This document shows, in pieces, positions 6,076 to 22,488 of a stretch of 23,712 bases of DNA. The stretch comes from a virus. The notes beneath the pieces are model-generated. The model was not told the DNA's origin and did not search any database. It was given only the letters and a program-made list of their open reading frames with translations. Location of the stretch: the IMG/VR virus record IMGVR_UViG_3300045741_000038, positions 1 to 23,712 of that record; one strand, written 5' to 3'. How positions within the stretch are numbered: position 1 is the stretch's first letter; every line of letters begins with the position of its first letter. The position numbers and the translations under genes are program-made.

Positions 6076-6462
6076 CTATTCTCCCAGCGCCTTTGACTGC
6101 CCAGCCGTTGACACCTTGACGGGCTGACTCAGGAATGGAATCGTCGGAGGGGGAGGAGAGGCGCTTGTCCCCACAAAATCGCCTGTCCCGGTATCGTCCA
6201 GCCGGACTACCAGCGCCCCATCCGCCTTCGATTTCGTGGCCGTCACCGATATCGTACCGCTCCCCGTCACCGTACCAGGAACGCAGCCAGCCGCCGAACC
6301 TCCTGCGAACGTCCAGGCCAACGTCCCGCGATAGACCGCCGCGCCTCCCGCGAAATCCTTCGCGCTGGGCGTACTCGTGATCGTGAACGCTCCCCCCGAT
6401 ATGGCGGACCCTACCCCGTGCGCGATAGAGCCAGCCGTCGTCATAACAGCCTTGCGCGCCAT
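6076..6462 (-). CDS. Small spike-associated protein, possibly PAAR-like tip
   Basis: A 128-aa Gly/Ser/Thr-rich protein starting at a TAATG overlap with the spike gene. It contains SIAHGVGSAISGG near the N-terminus, a single Cys in AAGCVPGTV and GSGTISVTATKSKADG followed by VVRLDDTG, and ends in a PPPP-containing tail. The repeated short Gly-turn strands and location right after the gpV-like spike fit a PAAR-like cap that sharpens the spike. The classical PAAR tetrapeptide is not present, so this is a contextual assignment. Alternative: another small baseplate protein. Confidence 0.45.
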   Translation of the reverse strand: MARKAVMTTAGSIAHGVGSAISGGAFTITSTPSAKDFAGGAAVYRGTLAWTFAGGSAAGCVPGTVTGSGTISVTATKSKADGALVVRLDDTGTGDFVGTSASPPPPTIPFLSQPVKVSTAGQSKALGE

Positions 6463-7127
6463 TACCGCAGTACCTCGAAATTGCCGTTGAGCCTCATGCT
6501 GGTGGAGTCCATGACCAGGGTGTTGCCGTTCCGGTCCGTCATGGTGATCCCCACCGTCTTGTTCATTACAACCTCGTTCTTGGCAGTCGCCCCATCCTTT
6601 TGCGTGATGCGGATGATATGGTTGGCGGTGTCCAGGAGAAGGGTGATCTGGTCATTCCCCGCTGGTGTATTTGCCTGGAGGACTCCCGTGTCCTTGTCAT
6701 AGGCAACTTCCCAGCCCCATTCCGTGACCTCCAGGGTATCACGTTCGAGCCCCGCGCCGACGAGCTTCGCCTTCATCTTCGTCGAAAGAGACAGCCTGGA
6801 ACATAGGATGAAGGCCGACTCCAGGGTCCCGTCCGGGAACATTACAAGGACCTCGCTACCCTGGGGAGGATAATCGCGCTTTCCAAACGCATGATTGCTA
6901 TTCTCGCCAGCCCAGGAGAAGGAGGCTATTCCGATTGCCCGCAGCTTGACGCCGTTGCTCAGGGTCACGTCCACGCGCGCGATATCCGACCGAACCTTGT
7001 CCACGACCGCCCACCGGCAGTTGACGGGTCCACCGATGCTTGACTCGGACCTATCCCGGAGGCGCTCCTGTTGTGCTGGCGTCCCTGGTACATACGGTCG
7101 GTGGACGTTGATCCGTAGGCGGTTCAT
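6462..7127 (-). CDS. Baseplate spike protein, gpV/gp45-like
   Basis: A 221-aa protein starting at the ATG that forms an ATGA overlap with the hub gene; a longer reading from 7196 would run 70 bases into the hub gene and is not preferred. Residues 38-112 form an OB-fold-like domain (VVDKVRSDIARVDVTL, then YPPQGSEVLVMFPDG). Residues 150-221 are a run of short strands (ITLLLD, IIRITQKDG, VGITMTDRNGNTLVMD), typical of the trimeric beta-helix of gpV/gp45 spikes. It likely pierces the outer membrane or cell envelope. Placement between hub and tip/wedge genes agrees. Confidence 0.85.
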   Translation of the reverse strand: MNRLRINVHRPYVPGTPAQQERLRDRSESSIGGPVNCRWAVVDKVRSDIARVDVTLSNGVKLRAIGIASFSWAGENSNHAFGKRDYPPQGSEVLVMFPDGTLESAFILCSRLSLSTKMKAKLVGAGLERDTLEVTEWGWEVAYDKDTGVLQANTPAGNDQITLLLDTANHIIRITQKDGATAKNEVVMNKTVGITMTDRNGNTLVMDSTSMRLNGNFEVLR

Positions 7128-8566: not shown

Positions 8567-10683
8567 TTGGCCGTGCCCGCCGCGTCACCCTGGCCGTCCA
8601 TATTGAGGTTGATGACAAGCTCCTTGTTCGCCACCATCCAGCGACGAAGCTCAACGATGAGATCGGCAAGGTCCCCCTCCACCAGCCTTGCCCCGCCCGC
8701 GCTGGTCGGAGACGTTCCCTTTGCATACAGCGCGCTCATGGCCGATGCCCGTCCCCCGGGCTTCACGTTGGAGAGCATGTTGAGGATTTCGATATCAGAA
8801 GCAATGTCCCCGTTGTCCATGCCGAGGAACGTCCCCACGGGTCCCGTGAGCCCAAGAGAGTCTACCTTCACGTCACGGATGGCCCGGTCGATGGTCTGTA
8901 TCATGCCGAGGCTAAAATCCTTCCTCCTGAAAGCGTCGGAGAGCTTATACGCCATCCCCTTGCCCTGAAATGCCTTTAGCTCCGCTGGGCTCATTGAGGC
9001 AAGGCCGGTCGTCATGGCTGCGGCTGCCGATCCCATGGCAGGGTCGGTGTAGCCCTGGCCGAGCCCCGTTGACATGGCCCTCCCCAGGTAGTCCTCGACT
9101 ATCGGAAGTGTTGATCCCCGGAGATTCTTGGCTGCCTGGGCTTGCACGTCGGCGTATTGGTCGGCATACATCTTGTTCCGGATCCCGGGCAGATCGACTT
9201 TCAGCCCCTTCGCCAGAAGCTCGATCACTGTTCCCAGCCCCGTCTCGATTGCAGCCTTCGCGCCGGTGAGCCCGCTGCCGATTTCCCGGATCCTCTCTCG
9301 TATATCCTCCTGGATCGTGAGCAGCTTGACCTCCGGCGTATCCTGGACATTCGGCGCCGTCAACTCTTTCACGGCAGCCTCGGAATTGAGAATGTTCAAC
9401 CTTTCGGCGGTCGTGTAGTTCACACCGAACGTCTGCCGCAGCATTTCAATCCGGCTTGCCTCGTCCTTGCCAGCGTAGCTCCTGATTTTGTCGCGGATGG
9501 CCGTGAACATTTCCTTGTCGATGGTCTGTTCCATCCGCTTCATTACGTCGATGTAGTTCCCGCCCTTCGTCAAGGACTGCGCGGCCTGGAACATGATAAC
9601 GTCGGTATCCTTCGAGAGCGCCGTTGCACCGGCCACCGATTGCGTAAGCTGATTGATGAACTGCGCCCCGCGCGCCCCCTGGTACAGCGGCCCAAGCTGG
9701 GCTATCCAGTTTTGCGTCTCGCTGACCTTCGTGAATCCGGCGGTGACTCCCCTCTCCATCCCCGCCTCGACGATTTGCACCATTGCCTGGAGGTATTCGT
9801 TCGTCCGGCCCGTTCCCATTCCCGTGGCCTGGGCTCCGCCCGCCGCGAGCGCCAGCGGATTCCCGCCGAGCCCGAACAGTTGACCCATGCCGAGCGCGCG
9901 AGACCCCAAGGCCATGTCTACGTTCATGCCGCGCGTGTAGCCGAATAGATTCCGGCTCATGGCGTCTACGTCGCTCGGCTTCCCTCCAGCCTGGATGAGC
10001 CCCTTGAATACGAGGTTGCCCTCCTTGAGCGTGTAGCCGAACTCGGCCGCGCTCTGACTGGCCCGGCTCATGGACTCTTTGAACAGGAGACTGTTTTCCG
10101 CCGCGCTCTTTCCCAGGCCCCCGAGAGCCGCCGCGACGCTCATGCTATCCTGCATGACCGCCTCGTACTGTTCGGAGAGCTTGTTCAGGACCATGGCGGA
10201 TCCGGCGACGACCGCCGTGATTGCGCCCGCCACCTTTGCCGCCGCTGGCATGGACTGGAGAAAGCCCGCCGCCGTGTCGGTTGCACCGATGGCGGCTCCC
10301 GCGATATCGCCTGTACGCCCCAGGTTGGCGAACGTGGACCCGAGCCCCCGCAGGAGCTTGTTCGATTCGGCCAGGAAGTTGGTCTGCTGCCGCCTGGACT
10401 CTTTCTCCTCGTTCGTCTCCTGCTTTGGCCGGTCGTGGACGGCTGCCGGGCCCCCCTTTGGACCGCCCCCTGCGCCGCGCGCCTTCTCCAGCCCAGCGCC
10501 GATTTCCTTTATGTCCTGATTCAGCTTGTTGTACTGTTCCTGCAAGTCCTCGATGCCGAGAGCCTTCTTGGCCTCGCCAGCCTTGCGGATCACTTGATCC
10601 AGGGCCGACGTTGACTTTTGAGCGACCTGGGACAGATTCTCTGTCGCGTCTATGCGGACGCCGAGGTTAGCTTGATCGGACAT
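8563..10683 (-). CDS. Tail tape measure protein
   Basis: A 706-aa, Ala/Gly/Met-rich protein just after the tail chaperones and before the hub, the fixed place of the tape measure. Residues 42-70 are a charged coiled-coil stretch, 71-100 a Gly/Pro/charged linker, and about 147-167 a hydrophobic Ala/Val segment (AKVAGAITAVVAGSAMVL) that may enter the membrane during ejection. The rest is mainly helical. At roughly 0.15 nm per residue it predicts a tail of about 106 nm. No lytic domain is evident. The gene overlaps the preceding chaperone ORF by 17 bases. Confidence 0.88.
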   Translation of the reverse strand: MSDQANLGVRIDATENLSQVAQKSTSALDQVIRKAGEAKKALGIEDLQEQYNKLNQDIKEIGAGLEKARGAGGGPKGGPAAVHDRPKQETNEEKESRRQQTNFLAESNKLLRGLGSTFANLGRTGDIAGAAIGATDTAAGFLQSMPAAAKVAGAITAVVAGSAMVLNKLSEQYEAVMQDSMSVAAALGGLGKSAAENSLLFKESMSRASQSAAEFGYTLKEGNLVFKGLIQAGGKPSDVDAMSRNLFGYTRGMNVDMALGSRALGMGQLFGLGGNPLALAAGGAQATGMGTGRTNEYLQAMVQIVEAGMERGVTAGFTKVSETQNWIAQLGPLYQGARGAQFINQLTQSVAGATALSKDTDVIMFQAAQSLTKGGNYIDVMKRMEQTIDKEMFTAIRDKIRSYAGKDEASRIEMLRQTFGVNYTTAERLNILNSEAAVKELTAPNVQDTPEVKLLTIQEDIRERIREIGSGLTGAKAAIETGLGTVIELLAKGLKVDLPGIRNKMYADQYADVQAQAAKNLRGSTLPIVEDYLGRAMSTGLGQGYTDPAMGSAAAAMTTGLASMSPAELKAFQGKGMAYKLSDAFRRKDFSLGMIQTIDRAIRDVKVDSLGLTGPVGTFLGMDNGDIASDIEILNMLSNVKPGGRASAMSALYAKGTSPTSAGGARLVEGDLADLIVELRRWMVANKELVINLNMDGQGDAAGTAK

Positions 10684-11005
10684 CCGCTACCGCCTCGATG
10701 ATCTCGTTGATCTCGTCCTCGCTGTACCCCATGTCCTCGAACTCCTCTTTCGGCATCTCGGCCTCGGCGTCGTCCCGTTCTTTCTCGCGGCGCCTCTCCC
10801 GCAGGAACTCGTCACGGACTTCCTCCGGGGTTGCCTGGACCATGTAGGAGAGGTATAGAAGCTCACACTGTTCTTGCGTGAGCTTTAGGTACGACTCCTC
10901 GGTCGGCAGCTTCCGGAAGTGTTCAAGCGTCCACAGACGAATCCTTGTCCGTTCGCTCAGTCCCTCCAGCGTCTGCTCGGTAACTGATGGATTTGCCTGT
11001 GTCAC
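10667..11005 (-). CDS. Tail assembly chaperone, downstream (T-like) frame
   Basis: A 112-codon acidic ORF overlapping the upstream chaperone by 83 bases in the +1 frame and overlapping the tape measure start. The only start-like codon is GTG at 11005, with no good ribosome site before it (just GGA ten bases away). That GTG follows immediately after the TTT TTT C tract of the upstream gene, so the ORF is most simply read as the C-terminal extension of a G-GT fusion produced by frameshifting. It is rich in Glu/Arg helices (FLRERRREKERDDAEAEM). The fusion would be about 225 aa. Chaperones of this type coat the tape measure and recruit tube protein. Confidence 0.75.
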   Translation of the reverse strand: MTQANPSVTEQTLEGLSERTRIRLWTLEHFRKLPTEESYLKLTQEQCELLYLSYMVQATPEEVRDEFLRERRREKERDDAEAEMPKEEFEDMGYSEDEINEIIEAVADVRSS

Positions 11006-11345
11006 GAAAAAAGTCCAGGTATCTCCCGTAGAGATGCGACGTGAACGCGGTGTCAGGATAGTTTTCGGCTGCCCCGAGCTTCATCCACCATTCGGGCGCG
11101 TCGGTTACAACCACGTCCAGGGTCGCGTTCATCCGCATCATAAAGAGCGCCGTGTCGTCGAACTGCGCTATCGTATGACCGGCGCCGAGCATGTCGGCCA
11201 CACGAAGGTCGATCTGACGGCGCTCGAAGGGCGTCGGGTATTTCACCGTGAACGCACCGCGCTCCGTTTTGAAAACGGTCGAGAGGGTTTCCCCTTTCAG
11301 GACCCTCTCGACCAGCTTGTCCGATTCCGTGTTCTGCTTTGCCAT
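10923..11345 (-). CDS. Tail assembly chaperone, upstream (G-like) frame
   Basis: A 140-aa protein between tail tube and tape measure. Two ATG codons compete: the first, at 11351, is only one base from AAGGAGG, while the second, at 11345, has seven bases of spacing, so the second is chosen. The sequence includes RQIDLRVADML and a mixed helical pattern typical of lambda gpG-type chaperones. The last 27 residues (RDTGKSISYR onward) are only in the unshifted product. Identity is from position, size and the overlapping second frame; it shares no strong motif. Confidence 0.75.
   Translation of the reverse strand: MAKQNTESDKLVERVLKGETLSTVFKTERGAFTVKYPTPFERRQIDLRVADMLGAGHTIAQFDDTALFMMRMNATLDVVVTDAPEWWMKLGAAENYPDTAFTSHLYGRYLDFFRDTGKSISYRADAGGTERTDKDSSVDA
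11003..11013 (-). promoter_or_regulatory. Candidate programmed ribosomal frameshift site in tail chaperone gene
   Basis: On the coding strand the sequence reads GAC TTT TTT CGT GAC in the G frame. Shifting +1 at the second TTT (re-pairing to TTC) leads into GTG ACA CAG and the downstream ORF; a -2 slip on the six T run gives the same frame with one extra Phe. A -1 slip would read TCG TGA and stop at once, so the usual lambda-type direction is excluded. TTT CGT is the same core as the influenza PA-X +1 site. Confidence 0.6.
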
Positions 11346-11352
11346 GACCATG

Positions 11353-11359
11353 CCTCCTT
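11353..11359 (-). promoter_or_regulatory. Strong ribosome binding site deciding chaperone start
   Basis: AAGGAGG on the coding strand. It is one base from the first ATG (11351) but seven bases from the second (11345), so initiation at the second is strongly favoured. Confidence 0.75.
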
Positions 11360-11376: not shown

Positions 11377-11865
11377 TCAGCTTACAAACTGCACCGAATC
11401 CGGCGTTTGCAGCCTCTTGATGGACATGAGCCGCATGTTGGCGGTCATGTATGCGTTCGGCGTGATGTTCTCGCCGTTGGACGCTACCACGCTTTCGGCG
11501 AACACGCTGCGCGGCTTCTGTGTCGCCTTGTTGAAGAACACGAGCCCGGCGAAGCGGCGCCCCAGGCCGTCCACCTGGACCGTATCGCGGTACGGTAGGA
11601 GATCGTCGAGCGTCACCTGCCCGCCATCCGCGTACAGCGTTTTCTTCTTTTCAGGGACGAACAGACCGATGTTGACGTTACACTGGTAGTTGTGGCTGTC
11701 CAGTGAGATCGGCCCGAGGTAGCCTACGACGTTGGCGGGTTGCACTCCCCAATCCTCGTCGTAGCTGGCTTGCGTGACCATGCCGATGGGAAGGAACTTG
11801 CCACTCCCGTCCAGGTCCACGCCGACGCCCATCCAGGCGCCACCGGTGATTGTTTTCTCTGCCAA
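11377..11865 (-). CDS. Tail tube protein
   Basis: A 162-aa protein directly after the sheath, the normal place of the tail tube of contractile phages. It starts with TTG, not ATG: AAGGAGG lies six bases upstream and overlaps the sheath stop region, so the start is well supported. The N-terminus (MAEKTITGGAWMGVGVDL) and strands such as NYQCNVNIGLFVPEKKKTLY fit the beta-barrel tube fold. A rare start codon with a perfect Shine-Dalgarno sequence for a high-copy protein is unusual. Confidence 0.8.
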   Translation of the reverse strand: MAEKTITGGAWMGVGVDLDGSGKFLPIGMVTQASYDEDWGVQPANVVGYLGPISLDSHNYQCNVNIGLFVPEKKKTLYADGGQVTLDDLLPYRDTVQVDGLGRRFAGLVFFNKATQKPRSVFAESVVASNGENITPNAYMTANMRLMSIKRLQTPDSVQFVS

Positions 11866-16617: not shown

Positions 16618-17222
16618 TCCTCATCCTCCGCAGGTTGGATTTCGGAGTAGAGCACAGGCCGCGTCTCCTCCCCGATCTTGACTTCCGGGTAGCCCTTCGC
16701 CGTGAATCCCGTCACGGTCCCCCGCTCCCCGTCTACGGTGACAGAGGACCCGCGCTTTATGCGGATCATGGCGCGCTTTCGATTGTTCAACTGTTGCGTT
16801 AGTTGCGTCGTCTTTTCGTCGTACTCCTTCTGGTAGGCTTTCGCATTGCCGGGCTCACTCTGAATCTTCATCATGTAGTACAGAGTGTCATAGTCGATCT
16901 TGAGGTCCAATTCCTTCGTATCCTGGTCGAAGCCATAGTCGGCATACTTGGCTTCCATCTTGTCCGCGAGCCCCGCATCGACCCCGCGCATGATCTCCAG
17001 GAGAGGCTTTATCTGGTGCTCGCGCTGGGCCTCTTCGATGGCGAAAAGGTAGTCCTCCCCGCCGCTGCCTTCGTCGTCACCGAACAGCTTTTCCTGGCCT
17101 TGCTCATCCTGGGAAACCCAGCGCGTCACCGTCTTTCCGGTGCGATCCTGCTTCTTGACCGGCACCAGCTTGGAGTAGTTTCGTGGCTTCACGGCCTTGT
17201 CCAGTCGCAGCGTGAGAATCAT
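16614..17222 (-). CDS. Unknown neck-module protein with SH3/KOW-like C-terminus
   Basis: A 202-aa protein joined by ATGA overlaps on both sides. Residues 40-60 are acidic and Gly-rich (LFGDDEGSGGEDY). Residues 60-155 are helical and charged. The C-terminal 50 residues (KRGSSVTVDGERGTVTGF, then YPEVKIGEETRPVLYSEI) have the strand-turn look of a KOW/SH3-like barrel. I do not recognise the whole protein. Location between connector and neck genes suggests a structural or assembly role. Confidence 0.6.
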   Translation of the reverse strand: MILTLRLDKAVKPRNYSKLVPVKKQDRTGKTVTRWVSQDEQGQEKLFGDDEGSGGEDYLFAIEEAQREHQIKPLLEIMRGVDAGLADKMEAKYADYGFDQDTKELDLKIDYDTLYYMMKIQSEPGNAKAYQKEYDEKTTQLTQQLNNRKRAMIRIKRGSSVTVDGERGTVTGFTAKGYPEVKIGEETRPVLYSEIQPAEDEE

Positions 17223-18760
17223 ATGTTCCCCATCTTCAAGCGGCCGAAGCGGAAACGGTTGTTTGTGAACCAGTCCTCCACGTCCTTCTCGTACTGCTTG
17301 ATGCGGGCGCCGTAGAGCACGGAGTTGTGTGCCACGAACCCGTTGCCGATGAAGTTTTCATTCCCCTTCACCGATATGTCGTACATCTCCGTGGCAACCC
17401 TTTCCACCTTCGAGACGATGCGCGCGTTGTGGATTGCGCCGTCATAGGACACCACGGCCATGTCCCCGACCCGGATCTCCTCCCCCGGCATGACCCTCTG
17501 CTCGCTCCCGCGCTGCACGTAGAGGCTATGATCCTCTGTGACGTGAATCTCGAATCCGTTTTCCGTGGTGACATAGTAGCACTTCTGGTTTTTTCGGACG
17601 TGGTGCTTCATTACGTCGAGCACTTCTTTCGGCTCGATGATCTGATTCTCAACGTCCAGGCTCAGGACCTTTTTCCCAATCCAGGTGTCCCGCTTGCGGA
17701 ACATTTCCCGTATCGTGATCCATTCCCCGTTGTGTTTGGCGATCCTGGTATCACCGGCCACCGATTGCCCGGAGTTGGTAGAGGAGAAAGATTCGCTCAC
17801 GCCATCCATGGACAAGGAGGCCGATGCGAGCCCGCCAAGCTGCGCGTCGGACACCATCTTGAGAATGTCCATGGTCGCCATCTTGCCGATGATCTCCCGT
17901 AGGTCGTCGTCCAGCCTTGCGGCGTCCGCGAGCCCCACCGTATAGTCGATGCGGTAGCCGTGCGGATAGCTGGGAAGCTGGAAACCTCCGATCACGGCAA
18001 AGATGTACGGGTTGGTCATGGACGTGGGCTGCCCCGCGCGCGGGTAGTAGTGAATCACGCCCTTCTGCTTGTCGAGACGAATCCAAGTAGAGAGGTCGAT
18101 GATCTTGCTCTCCACCTGGGAATAAAGCTCGAAACGCTCTACGGAGATCACCGGGCGGCGGCGCAGCGTTACCCACCCGAACTTGCCGAACTTGTCACGG
18201 CGGTACGGGTACGGAGCCTCCTCGATCTCATAGTCCGTTCCGAACACCTTGCCCGTGACTTCCGGGTGACAAGCGATTCGGCGCTGGAGGATTTGATAGC
18301 CCGTGCGCCTCTCGAACTCCAGCGTGGAGTGGTGGACGTGATCCGTGATCTGTTCATCGGTCCAGTAGGTCCCATCCCTGGCGCGGAGGTCGATGCCGAA
18401 GCAGAAGCTGTAGCGGATATCGTCCGCCGTGAATATCTCCCCGAACTGCCCCGTTGGCGGCTTGTAGTTGCCGAACGTGAACCCGATCTTGCCCGACGTT
18501 CCACCAGGGATCGGGTCGGACGATTCGCTCTCGACCGGGCCCGAAGGGTTGAAGTATGCGATCTTGTACCAGGAGCTTGAGACGCCCGTGGAGTCGGTAT
18601 AGTTGTAGATTTCCTGATTGGCGGTCATTACCGGCCGCGTCCCAGGCCCCGTGATCTCCGCGTAGACGCCATCGACATCGGGTGCCCTATAGACTTTCAA
18701 CTGCGAGAAGGTCGCCAGGATGGCAGCTATGTCGTCTACCTTTATCACGAGCGTGTTCAT
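17219..18760 (-). CDS. Head-tail connector protein interrupted by a mini-intein
   Basis: A 513-aa precursor. Residues 1-90 look like an Ig/FN3-like domain (YRAPDVDGVYAEI, WYKIAYF, PVESESSDPIPGG). Residues 100-332 and 480-513 form a connector-like protein (EIFTADDIRYSFCFG, TDEQITDHVHHSTLEFERRTGY, and GARIKQYEKDVEDWF). Between them residues 333-479 are an intein with all standard splicing blocks. After splicing the mature protein would be 366 aa with the junction STNSGQ-SVLYG. Gene starts at an ATGA overlap with the repeat fibre gene. The connector name is from position plus helical pattern; the intein is well supported. Confidence 0.7.
   Translation of the reverse strand: MNTLVIKVDDIAAILATFSQLKVYRAPDVDGVYAEITGPGTRPVMTANQEIYNYTDSTGVSSSWYKIAYFNPSGPVESESSDPIPGGTSGKIGFTFGNYKPPTGQFGEIFTADDIRYSFCFGIDLRARDGTYWTDEQITDHVHHSTLEFERRTGYQILQRRIACHPEVTGKVFGTDYEIEEAPYPYRRDKFGKFGWVTLRRRPVISVERFELYSQVESKIIDLSTWIRLDKQKGVIHYYPRAGQPTSMTNPYIFAVIGGFQLPSYPHGYRIDYTVGLADAARLDDDLREIIGKMATMDILKMVSDAQLGGLASASLSMDGVSESFSSTNSGQSVAGDTRIAKHNGEWITIREMFRKRDTWIGKKVLSLDVENQIIEPKEVLDVMKHHVRKNQKCYYVTTENGFEIHVTEDHSLYVQRGSEQRVMPGEEIRVGDMAVVSYDGAIHNARIVSKVERVATEMYDISVKGNENFIGNGFVAHNSVLYGARIKQYEKDVEDWFTNNRFRFGRLKMGNI
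17324..17764 (-). mobile_element. Mini-intein (147 aa, Ser1, no homing endonuclease)
   Basis: Residues 333-479 of the connector precursor. Block A is SVAGDTRI with Ser1 (codon TCG at 17762-17764) in place of the usual Cys. Block B is FEIHVTEDHSLYV, with the TxxH motif. Block F is MYDISVKGNENFIGNG. Block G is FVAHN followed by Ser+1 (TCC at 17321-17323). The 147-aa length leaves no room for a LAGLIDADG or HNH endonuclease. The catalytic Ser1, His of TEDH, penultimate His, final Asn and Ser+1 are all present, so splicing is expected. Confidence 0.88.
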
Positions 18761-21700
18761 TTCACCCTCTCAATCCTCGGCCTCGACGTTGAGGAGCCCG
18801 CTTTCGGCCTTCGCGTTGTACGCGAGGCGAGGTCGGTATCCGCCGAATCCGAGTACCCGTGCGGTCTAAGCCTGTCTGGACGTGATGCTACACTGGAAAT
18901 GCCACTCGTCTCAAGGAAGCCGCGCGGCCTGTAGTTGGTGACGATGTTGATGACGATGGAGACATGCGGCCAGCCGACAACCGCTTGGCTGCCAATCCCT
19001 ACCGCCCGAATGTTCACGGAGACGCCCGGGCGCCCCAGGGCCTGGACCGATCCAATCCCTACCGGAGACAGCGTGACGCTGACACCAGGAGAGCCGAACG
19101 ACGCCGCCGAGGCAATCCCGCCCGCACCAGAAATCTGCACGTAGGGGCGGACCGTAGGCTGCCCGAAAGCGGCTGCCGACGCCACCCCGCTCGGGTTGAT
19201 ATTGGCCTGGACCCGCTGGAGATCGCCGAACGTCTCTGCCGTGCCGATGCTGGACGGGGAGACCCGGGCCAAGATGCTTGCCGTGCCGAACGCCAGGGCC
19301 GAGCCAACGCCGACCGGTGACAGATTCACGGTGAGTCCAGGAGCGCCGAACACGGAAGCTGATGGTATGCCCGCCGTTACCGTAAGGTTGACGCTGATAG
19401 AAGGTCGCCCGAAGGTTTCCGCGCTGGCGATCCCTGCCGGATCCATCTCTACGCTTACACCCTGGAGGTCCGTCTTTCCACTTTCGTTACCGGGAACGCC
19501 TACCGCCTCTGCCGATGCGATTCCCGCCGGTCCTATCACGGCACGGACAACGGGCTCGGGTCCGAATGCTTCCTCCGATGCAATCCCGCCCGCAGCCGCG
19601 ATAGCGTGGAGGATGCCCCCTACAGTCGGAGCGCCGAAAGACTCAGAGGAGGCAAGTCCCACCGCGCTTATGTCTACGGTGAGCGCGGGTACGCCTATGG
19701 CTTCCGCCGACGCTATTCCAACGGGAGCAAGATTGATGACACCGGATATTACGATGGTCGGAACCCCAAAGGCTTCCGCCGATGCAATCCCTGTCGGACC
19801 TATGCTCGCCGAGAGCGACGGGCTTCCGAACGCTTCCGCGCTGGCTATACCGGTGGGAGCGAGCGTTGTTTGGAGGGAGGGAATACCAAAGGCTCCCGCC
19901 GACGCGATACCGGCAGGAGACAGCGTTGCCTGGATCGCCGGGGTCCCAATGGCTCCCGCCGAAGCAACACCGGTTGGCGCGAGCGTCGCCTGGGCCGCCG
20001 GGGTTCCAAACGCTTCCGCCGAAGCGATCCCTCCAGCGCCAGTAATGGATGCGGGGACAAGGACAGTGGGGACCCCGAAGGCTTCCCCGGATGCTATTCC
20101 CTTTCCGCCGGTAGGAGGGAGTAACGGGTACTTGCTGCTATCAAGAAGAACGGCAAGCTCATCATAGTACGTGGTGTAGGCGGTTGTCGCCATCTGCCCA
20201 TACATGAAGTAGCTGGTGCCAGCCTGTCCGAATGTTGTGAACGACCTTGATTTCAGAAGAGAGAGGTTTTCATCATATACGCTGAAAGCCGGGTCTACTC
20301 CTGCCGCGAACTCGACGGTGATCCAGTACCAATGGTTCGCGGTAATAGAGACATCATCGGACGTACCTCCGGTGATGAGTCCGCGTATCTTATATGCCGA
20401 GGTACCAGAATCGTATGTAGTGGCAATCTGAATGTATTTGGTCCCCGTGTCGTCGTACACGACAAGGATGTTATTACCGGCCGTGAGGGTCTGTGTCGGA
20501 GCCCAAAACCAGAAGCCCAAGGTGACGGGAGCGTTCCCCGTATTCTTCTGTACCAGGACTCTATCTTGCGTTGACCCTACCATCTTCCCCGATGCAGCCC
20601 CGGCCTTCGCCCTGTCGGTTGATGGTATGACCGGGCTCCCCAGCGGCGTGACCGTCCATCCGCTCATGGTGGCGAGAGTCGAGTCCTCGAAATCTTCGTA
20701 AAGGTCCAGCGACGGTGTAGTGAGGTCGATGGTGACAGATACGCCCGGGGCTCCGAGCGCCCCCGCGCTGGCTATCCCGGTAGGAGACAGAATCGCCTGG
20801 GCTGCCGGAACGCCGAGCGCCTCGGCCGACGCTATACCAGTGGGAGACAGTGTTGCCTGTGCGGAAGGAACGCCGAGCGCCCCAGCGGATGCTACGCCAG
20901 TCGGAGAGAGTGTTGCTTGGACTGCCGGGACGCCGAACGCCTCGGCGGATGGAATAGCTGACGGGGAAATCTGTTGGATGGGAATGACAGTCGGGACTCC
21001 GAACGCCTCGGCGGACGTGATCCCTTGCGATATGTACGGACCTATGGCAACCGAATCGACCTTGATATCGTCGAAGTCAACATGGTCCATAAACCCCACG
21101 GAAGCAGTAGGTATGTGCCCTACGTCTATCTCAGTTACTTGGAGATCGGGAGTGCTTGCCTGTGAGGAGACGAGCGTCCCATCTATCCAGAACTGTGACG
21201 TTCCGTTGCGGACATAGTTGATCTCTACGAGATACCATTTCCCTGGTATTAGGTCGGCAAGACCACCGCCAGCGAAGCCTACGCCGTTGGTCAGAGCCCA
21301 TTTGTTGTTTGACTGGACGCCTACATAAAAGAGCGCCCCACCATTAACCAATGAAACGAATTTCTCGTTTCCCGACGACGTGGTGGGAAACCTTATGTAG
21401 AATCTAAAAAAGAGATTGTTTGCTGCCGTGAAATACTTAGCGCCATAGGGATATGAAACGCTCGTCACGAATTGGTATCGGTAGCCGAAACCCTTATGGG
21501 CCGCTGCTGCCGCATCGAGCGCGAAGGTGCTTGGTCCGCCACCGCCAAGGGCGCTAAACTCCCAGGGCGAGCTTCCAGCGTTCTCTCCATCCATGAGAGC
21601 GATTCCCGGTGATTCGCCGTTGTCGGGCGCTATCACCACGCTTATGCTCGGTACTCCGAAGCTCTCCCGGGACGGGATGGCTCCGGCGTTGTGTATCCCC

Positions 21701-22488
21701 AGGTCGGTTGACTGGAACTGGAGAAGGGCCGCGATCCAGTTGCGTCCGTTGGTCAGTGTTTCGTTGGCGTGTTTCGCGCTCCCTGGAGGCGCAGCAAAAT
21801 GCTTGAAGAAGCCATCGAGTCCGAGAGGACCGGCGAATGTTCCATCCGGAGAGAGCGCCGCAATCTGGCGAGTGCCGGAGGTAGTGCCGCCCGATGGATC
21901 ATACTTGATACCGGCAACGTCTACCCCGGGATTGCTCTGCGCGGTGTCCGTCGTCTGTGCATCGTTGCCAAGCCCGACGTTCTCGGCATGTTCATAGAGA
22001 CCGCCGCGCATAGCCGGTATGTTCGACCGGAACTGACGGACCACTACCTCACGGTTTGTGGCAAGCGCGCCGCTGAGATGGAAGGTGAACGTGACGGTGC
22101 TGGCCGGTCCGGGACGCTCCAGGATGAACACGCCGAGCGAAAGCGTACCTTGTGTGTATCGCGCCTGGAGATTGAACGTGAGTCCTCCGCCGGAGAGCGT
22201 CGGCGTATAGCCCGTCTGCCCTTCCCATGCACAGAAGGCCACCAGGAGGTCGTCGCTGAGAATATCCAGGGTCGCAGAGCTTGTAGTGAGGTCCTGGCCC
22301 GCTGCGGCATTGATGCCGTAGGACGCTCCAATCTCGACGAACGGATTGAGGTTGGGTGTTCCGATTACCTCGGCAGAGGCTATCGCTACGGGACCGACTA
22401 CCGCCGATACACCGGGGGCGCCGAACGCCTCACCCGATGCAATGCCCGAAGGTTGGATTACATAGGGTGTGGCGAGTAGAAGGCTCAT
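18757..22488 (-). CDS. Large repeat-rich fibre or adhesin-like virion protein with LamG-like domains
   Basis: A 1243-aa protein. About 26 copies of a ~20-residue unit with consensus PxGIASAEAFGxPxVxVxL appear: two at residues 12-46, one near 268-288, five at 487-586 and about 18 at 795-1183. Between them lie a beta-rich domain (52-266), a LamG-like sandwich (295-485; FFRFYIRFPTTSSG, KWYLVEINYVRNG, FWIDGTLV, FDDIKVDS) and a second LamG-like sandwich (595-788; LGFWFWAPTQTL, HWYWITVEFAAG, YYDELAVLLD). The C-terminal 60 residues are Arg/Ser-rich. There is no signal peptide. It lies right before the connector gene, so a head- or neck-attached fibre binding glycans is an inference. A tail-attached fibre cannot be excluded. 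Confidence 0.8.
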   Translation of the reverse strand: MSLLLATPYVIQPSGIASGEAFGAPGVSAVVGPVAIASAEVIGTPNLNPFVEIGASYGINAAAGQDLTTSSATLDILSDDLLVAFCAWEGQTGYTPTLSGGGLTFNLQARYTQGTLSLGVFILERPGPASTVTFTFHLSGALATNREVVVRQFRSNIPAMRGGLYEHAENVGLGNDAQTTDTAQSNPGVDVAGIKYDPSGGTTSGTRQIAALSPDGTFAGPLGLDGFFKHFAAPPGSAKHANETLTNGRNWIAALLQFQSTDLGIHNAGAIPSRESFGVPSISVVIAPDNGESPGIALMDGENAGSSPWEFSALGGGGPSTFALDAAAAAHKGFGYRYQFVTSVSYPYGAKYFTAANNLFFRFYIRFPTTSSGNEKFVSLVNGGALFYVGVQSNNKWALTNGVGFAGGGLADLIPGKWYLVEINYVRNGTSQFWIDGTLVSSQASTPDLQVTEIDVGHIPTASVGFMDHVDFDDIKVDSVAIGPYISQGITSAEAFGVPTVIPIQQISPSAIPSAEAFGVPAVQATLSPTGVASAGALGVPSAQATLSPTGIASAEALGVPAAQAILSPTGIASAGALGAPGVSVTIDLTTPSLDLYEDFEDSTLATMSGWTVTPLGSPVIPSTDRAKAGAASGKMVGSTQDRVLVQKNTGNAPVTLGFWFWAPTQTLTAGNNILVVYDDTGTKYIQIATTYDSGTSAYKIRGLITGGTSDDVSITANHWYWITVEFAAGVDPAFSVYDENLSLLKSRSFTTFGQAGTSYFMYGQMATTAYTTYYDELAVLLDSSKYPLLPPTGGKGIASGEAFGVPTVLVPASITGAGGIASAEAFGTPAAQATLAPTGVASAGAIGTPAIQATLSPAGIASAGAFGIPSLQTTLAPTGIASAEAFGSPSLSASIGPTGIASAEAFGVPTIVISGVINLAPVGIASAEAIGVPALTVDISAVGLASSESFGAPTVGGILHAIAAAGGIASEEAFGPEPVVRAVIGPAGIASAEAVGVPGNESGKTDLQGVSVEMDPAGIASAETFGRPSISVNLTVTAGIPSASVFGAPGLTVNLSPVGVGSALAFGTASILARVSPSSIGTAETFGDLQRVQANINPSGVASAAAFGQPTVRPYVQISGAGGIASAASFGSPGVSVTLSPVGIGSVQALGRPGVSVNIRAVGIGSQAVVGWPHVSIVINIVTNYRPRGFLETSGISSVASRPDRLRPHGYSDSADTDLASRTTRRPKAGSSTSRPRIERVK
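18940..20106 (-). repeat. Main block of ~18 coding repeats, 20-residue unit
   Basis: Protein residues 795-1183 of the repeat fibre. The best-kept core is GIASAEAFG, followed by x-P and an alternating V-x-V-x-L strand. Unit lengths vary from 18 to about 30 residues, with insertions such as the one at residues 1000-1016. At the DNA level the units are diverged, so they are not a recent expansion. Towards the C-terminus the core drifts (GIGSVQALG, GIGSQAVVG). Confidence 0.85.
20731..21030 (-). repeat. Second block of five coding repeats between the two LamG-like domains
   Basis: Residues 487-586. Units 5-8 (AIPSAEAFGVP, GVASAGALGVP, GIASAEALGVP, GIASAGALGAP) are close to exact 20-residue spacing with near-identical linkers AQATLSPTG, the most regular part of the protein. 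Confidence 0.85.
22351..22455 (-). repeat. Two N-terminal coding repeats of the fibre protein
   Basis: Residues 12-46: PSGIASGEAFGAPGVSAVVG and PVAIASAEVIGTPNLNPFVE, both 20 residues. They place the repeat at the very start of the protein, ahead of the first beta-rich domain. Confidence 0.75.

Follow-up and report, generated by a model that had tools for sequence, protein, structure and literature searches.

A candidate +1 frameshift site, UUU_CGU, in the tail assembly chaperone pair of a contractile-tailed phage

Introduction

The frameshift in phage tail assembly chaperone genes is classical, and reportedly was described by Xu and colleagues in 2004. In phage lambda, a chaperone encoded upstream of the tape measure gene is made in two forms, G and GT, the longer one through a -1 shift on X_XXY_YYZ; in Mu the shift is -2. 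Forward shifts occur in other phage tail genes, namely in the Listeria phages PSA, A118 and A500 and in SPP1 (PMC5009743, PMC3498833), where, unlike in the locus described here, they take place on a site of the CCC_UGA type and concern the major tail protein rather than a chaperone.

Closer precedents come from viruses of bacteria and archaea with contractile tails. The gp10.2/gp11.1 pair of phage SPO1 (NC_011421) is annotated in GenBank as one product made by +1 ribosomal slippage. For the HF1 group of haloviruses, TTT-CGC has been proposed as a +1 site (Dyall-Smith et al. 2020, PMC7230728), and for HSTV-2, whose chaperone is annotated as joined, a +1 shift was thought very likely (PMC5009743). 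The same codons are familiar from eukaryotic systems: in the PA-X shift of influenza A virus the slip takes place on UUU_C, CGU matters and a UCC codon in the E site stimulates (PMC3498833), while UUU_CGN is the +1 motif of amalgaviruses (PMC5052127). The authors of a 2024 frameshift predictor state that forward shifts lack any known general motif (PMC10885494).

Here, we analyze a chaperone pair in a viral contig of 23,712 nucleotides (IMG/VR record IMGVR_UViG_3300045741_000038), referred to below as the window. A first-pass annotation had proposed a +1 site in this pair, leaving a -2 shift open.

Results

Anatomy of the chaperone locus

The genes in question follow the order sheath, tube, chaperone pair and tape measure, with the pair consisting of two small overlapping ORFs (Table 1). 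The gene in the tube position had no match in our family searches; its TTG start is preceded by AAGGAGG. For the G-like chaperone we consider ATG 11345, 7 nt from the Shine-Dalgarno sequence, the likely start, preferred over ATG 11351. The upstream ORF stops at TGA 10925-10923 (minus strand), and the downstream frame, which lies in +1 relative to it, is open from 11080 to 10667, such that the two frames overlap by 155 nt.

Table 1. Features of the tail gene region and of the proposed shift site (coordinates are those of the window)
Feature	Coordinates	Strand	Basis or remark
Tail sheath protein, 579 aa	11878..13617	-	PHROG 279 (tail sheath), E 8.5e-56; 30% identity to PHB04 sheath
Probable tail tube protein, 162 aa, TTG start	11377..11865	-	Position after sheath, as in SPO1 gp10.1
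Shine-Dalgarno AAGGAGG of chaperone gene	11353..11359	-	7 nt 5' of ATG 11345
G-like tail assembly chaperone, 140 aa in frame 0	10923..11345	-	PHROG 1038, E 1e-5; also PHROG 25000
T6 run, codons UUU UUU	11007..11012	-	Found in the window only; E-site codon elsewhere mostly TCC/TCT
Proposed shift site UUU_CGU	11004..11009	-	P-site UUU 11009-11007, A-site CGU 11006-11004, next codon GUG 11005-11003
Predicted T-like extension after +1 shift, GTG 11005 to stop 10667	10667..11005	-	PHROG 25000 positions 135-204
Predicted G-T fusion, 225 aa	10670..11345 (11345-11007, then 11005-10670)	-	Translation with one +1 step at TTTC
Probable tape measure protein, 706 aa	8563..10683	-	Position directly downstream and length; weak family match

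On the minus strand the site reads CTG GAC TTT TTT CGT GAC, with GAC at 11015-11013, directly before the T6 run, and this confirms the GAC TTT TTT CGT of the first-pass annotation. As likewise noted there, the downstream frame can be entered by a +1 (or -2) step only: the -1 frame reads TCG and then TGA (11004-11002), which together with the +1 position of the downstream ORF excludes a lambda-type -1 shift on X_XXY_YYZ. Within the window, the string TTTCG is in itself common (65 observed against 52 expected), whereas TTT CGN in frame occurs just four times across all predicted genes. CGU accounts for 39 of the 398 Arg codons of this phage and is not the rarest among them.

The fused product is where homology is most evident. 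When translated with a single +1 step, the protein aligned with PHROG 25000 in one uninterrupted stretch (residues 29-209 to positions 38-204 of 230, E 4.3e-14), while the halves alone reached E values of only 1e-4 to 1e-5 against the families. The part of the PHROG 25000 profile matched by the T-like extension directly follows the part matched by the G-like ORF. An NCBIfam search returned nothing useful, and a sequence search against solved structures gave no match.

The G-like protein, modeled with AlphaFold at a mean pLDDT of 82, was ordered up to about residue 115, the shift falling at residue 113, and the frame-0 tail at residues 119-129 had a pLDDT below 50. The folded part of the protein stops, in this model, at the shift site. 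The best PDB match of this model was the tail assembly chaperone of HK97 (2ob9), a weak one by Foldseek (E 0.19) and also by VIA, where it ranked first with a Z of 5.7 over 94 residues. Matches in a viral structure library included annotated chaperones at E < 0.001.

The locus resembles that of SPO1 in gene order, in a homologous PHROG 25000 product and in having TTT CGT in the overlap. It differs in the E site (UUU in the window, UCC in SPO1) and in the length of the overlap (155 nt versus 86 nt), and the sheath proteins are 25% identical. With the haloarchaeal myoviruses of the HF1 group and HSTV-2 it shares a chaperone pair placed between tube and tape measure; unlike the window, these viruses have archaeal hosts, chaperones below profile detection and a site 3 to 8 codons before the stop.

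Two other genes of the window deserve mention. The gene at 17219-18760 (minus strand), of a head or head-tail connector type, contains an intein (Pfam Intein_splicing E 7e-15, Hint E 3e-7; residues ~344-455), and the 1,243-aa protein encoded at 18757-22488 (minus strand) consists in part of many degenerate repeats of the type GIASAEAFGVP.

TTT CGN is conserved in the overlap of distant relatives

Scans of viral contigs with single chaperones or the sheath of the window as query found no relative, and a chaperone query against a phage collection gave weak matches in Bacillus and Lysinibacillus phages only. Sheath alignments, used as query, retrieved 91 viral contigs and 15 contigs from bacterial genomes. 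Together with named phages, to which the sheath had also led, these yielded 107 complete chaperone pairs, which fall into 73 groups at less than 70% identity. None of the retrieved pairs was seen fused in one frame.

TTT CGN was present in the +1 overlap of 70 of the 73 groups, where about 1.0 would be expected from codon frequencies and overlap lengths. Clustering more coarsely, we found it in some member of 21 of 23 clusters at 50% identity and of 8 of 10 at 40%. Across an alignment of 54 members, Phe113 does not vary and Arg114 is more than 90% conserved; the sites are therefore homologous. Deep conservation of the TTT CGN core is thus established. The first-pass annotation had looked for conservation of the whole T6-CGT tract, and here the outcome is divided: the core stands, while T6 occurs in no other group of the survey.

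In a survey of 20 named viruses (Goe8 and Troll, which have extra genes between tube and chaperone, are not among the resolved pairs), the window and 17 of 19 resolved relatives had TTT CGN in frame within the +1 overlap, the relatives being PHB04, Touem01, ST4, Dolphis, phiT5282EW, fHe-Yen8-01, Mecenats66, SPO1, Goe26, LysYB1, EalM-132, Thermus phage phiMa, Enterococcus phage EFDG1, Listeria phage A511, Lb338-1 and the haloarchaeal HSTV-2 and HF2. The site falls among the final three codons of the first gene in A511, EFDG1, Lb338-1 and HF2, and the overlap of A511 and EFDG1 amounts to 14 nt in total. Two more Herelleviridae agree, with TCC TTT CGA in Staphylococcus phage vB_SscM-1 and ACC TTT CGA in Bacillus phage Grass.

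The two exceptions in the named survey are Leptospira phages, and LE1 also represents, by its A-tract, one of the three groups without TTT CGN. LE1, LalZ and Lin_34 (loci L014 at ~6480, L016 at ~6864 and L015 at ~6585) all have CTA/TTA AAA AAA AAT, the A run being immediately preceded by a TAA of the downstream frame. This arrangement points to another slip mechanism in the Leptospira phages, perhaps transcriptional slippage or a -2 shift. The other two groups have TCC TTT AAA (L064, ~6684-6700) and ACC TTT CAG (L127, ~6438-6444), and constitute natural tests of which A-site codons are permissive.

Codon choice at the site is under nucleotide-level selection

Conservation of Phe113 and Arg114 raises the question of whether TTT CGN is kept merely because the protein needs Phe-Arg, which we regard as very unlikely: despite the near invariance of both residues, the synonymous choice is fixed as well. 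Phe was encoded by TTT in 70 of 70 groups, where the codon usage of the individual loci would predict 19.4, and TTC is the preferred codon in many of these genomes, which are GC-rich. Phe-Arg dipeptides elsewhere in long ORFs of the same loci were written as TTT CGN in just 15%.

The neighboring codons are constrained in a similar manner. In the A site, CGG was found once against an expectation of 11.7, and CGA was used 22 times against one of 7.6. Where the site is preceded by Ser, the codon was UCC or UCU in 44 of 47 cases against 14.6 expected, and never AGC, AGT or UCA; cluster members are not fully independent in these counts, and p-values are indicative only. Overall, UCC or UCU occupies the E site in 43 to 44 of 70 relatives, UCC being the commonest codon there. 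Codon choice at the site is thus selected at the nucleotide level.

The resulting consensus, UCY_UUU_CGN, equals the +1 motif of influenza PA-X and amalgaviruses, extending a likeness that the first-pass annotation had drawn for the TTT CGT core of the window. P- and A-site codons are the same, and the stimulatory UCC of PA-X is the commonest E-site codon of the phage set. The ribosomes, by contrast, are eukaryotic and the genes unrelated, and the CGN of influenza A virus and amalgaviruses includes all four codons, whereas CGG is nearly absent from the phage set. The window itself is exceptional at the E site, with UUU instead of UCY and hence no UCC of the PA-X type.

Candidate stimulators near the site

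Downstream RNA structure did not emerge as a general stimulator, with a mean z of -0.39 after the site compared to -0.49 in a control stretch. The 80 nt downstream of the site in the window have a z of -2.0, which is not shared by relatives. The window has no Shine-Dalgarno-like stimulator at the usual distance 5' of the site. Many PHB04-like loci (L029, L041, L061, L071 and others) have AAGGAG(G) at -12 to -7, 6 nt before the UUU, which could act as such a stimulator; it is missing from the window and from SPO1, and is largely explained by a conserved Lys-Glu, in which GAG was used in 45 of 52 cases against 32.3 expected.

A +1 slip as the most probable route to the T-like part

Based on the sequence comparisons above, the tail assembly chaperone of the window is very probably made in two forms through a +1 shift at UUU_CGU. 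In addition to the conservation across groups, the slippage annotation of SPO1, the single-stretch match of the fusion and the codon-level selection all support the +1 site first proposed for this pair. Most ribosomes would stay in frame 0 and produce the G-like protein. In a minority, peptidyl-tRNA-Phe on the UUU at 11009-11007, with CGU waiting in the A site, would slip one base forward, its GAA anticodon re-pairing from UUU to UUC. Translation would then resume at GUG and give the G-T fusion with the junction ...LDFF-VTQ.... We infer a shift of this direction and of low rate, and distinct roles for the two products: taking lambda G/GT as the model, one would expect the G part to bind the tape measure protein and the T part to bring in tail tube subunits, so that the fusion may link the two.

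The strongest competitor, though an improbable one, is a -2 shift on the T6 run, which would give DFFF-VTQ. A single natural -2 shift, that of phage Mu, is cited (PMC3498833), and in the window the UUU UUU codons allow the P-site tRNA-Phe to re-pair perfectly two bases back. Such re-pairing requires U at two positions before UUU and therefore fails in the relatives, where TCC, TCT, CGA, ACA or ACC before TTT CGN forbids it. The confinement of T6 to the window therefore supports +1 over -2, and the homologues decide in this direction the choice that had been left open. Moreover, protein sequencing shows a +1 shift at the same motif in influenza A virus (PMC3498833).

Slightly less probable still is that no frameshift takes place and that translation of the downstream protein is initiated independently, at GTG 11005 or at a later codon. 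The GTG does sit exactly where +1 reading begins, and in many relatives the annotation gives the pair as two distinct genes. It has, however, no Shine-Dalgarno sequence at a usable distance, in agreement with what the first-pass annotation had remarked. In the relatives we also inspected the stretch of the downstream frame that begins at its upstream stop and extends 25 codons beyond the site: ATG, GTG and TTG are all absent from this region in 14 of 70, and in 62 of 70 it holds no start that bears a Shine-Dalgarno-like sequence. The annotated starts in A511 and EFDG1 omit conserved residues adjoining the site, and independent initiation does not account for the selection on UCY_UUU_CGN.

Transcriptional slippage, in which the polymerase drops one U from T6 and an ordinary ribosome then makes the same DFF-VTQ protein, is highly unlikely despite the presence of a possible slippage run, since relatives lack T6 and homology therefore argues against it as well: their three T are too short a run, and they retain CGN and UCY, neither of which is required for slippage.

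A forward-shift motif shared by bacterial and archaeal viruses

A +1 ribosomal shift in the chaperone pair is already known from the annotation of SPO1, and the motif from the HF1 haloviruses. The open-access papers that we searched contained no description of its occurrence in SPO1-like or PHB04-like phages, of its breadth or of its codon rules, and we consider this survey result more interesting than the site itself. Among viruses of bacteria and archaea, 70 of 73 groups keep a forward motif that is also the one of influenza A virus. We think it reasonably likely that UCY_UUU_CGN is one general +1 signal of contractile-tailed bacterial and archaeal viruses, kept as a unit (UCC or UCU, then UUU, then CGN without CGG and with CGA favored), and that its presence in influenza A virus and amalgaviruses reflects a property of P-site tRNA-Phe next to an A-site CGN codon common to the ribosomes of all three domains. 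If confirmed, SPO1 in Bacillus subtilis would offer an easy bacterial system for asking why UUU_CGN slips forward, and the codon rules (UCY, no CGG) would become testable.

Confirmation would also correct many annotations that omit the T part, start it too late or name it RNA polymerase beta subunit. Database annotations frequently start the second gene too far downstream and so lose conserved residues. In Staphylococcus phage vB_SscM-1, the chaperone T part (L132, 609-1133) is annotated as 'RNA polymerase beta subunit'; PHROG 1316 carries the same name, and its members overlap the chaperone families PHROG 4988 and 25000. On a chaperone T part this name is probably a misannotation that has spread.
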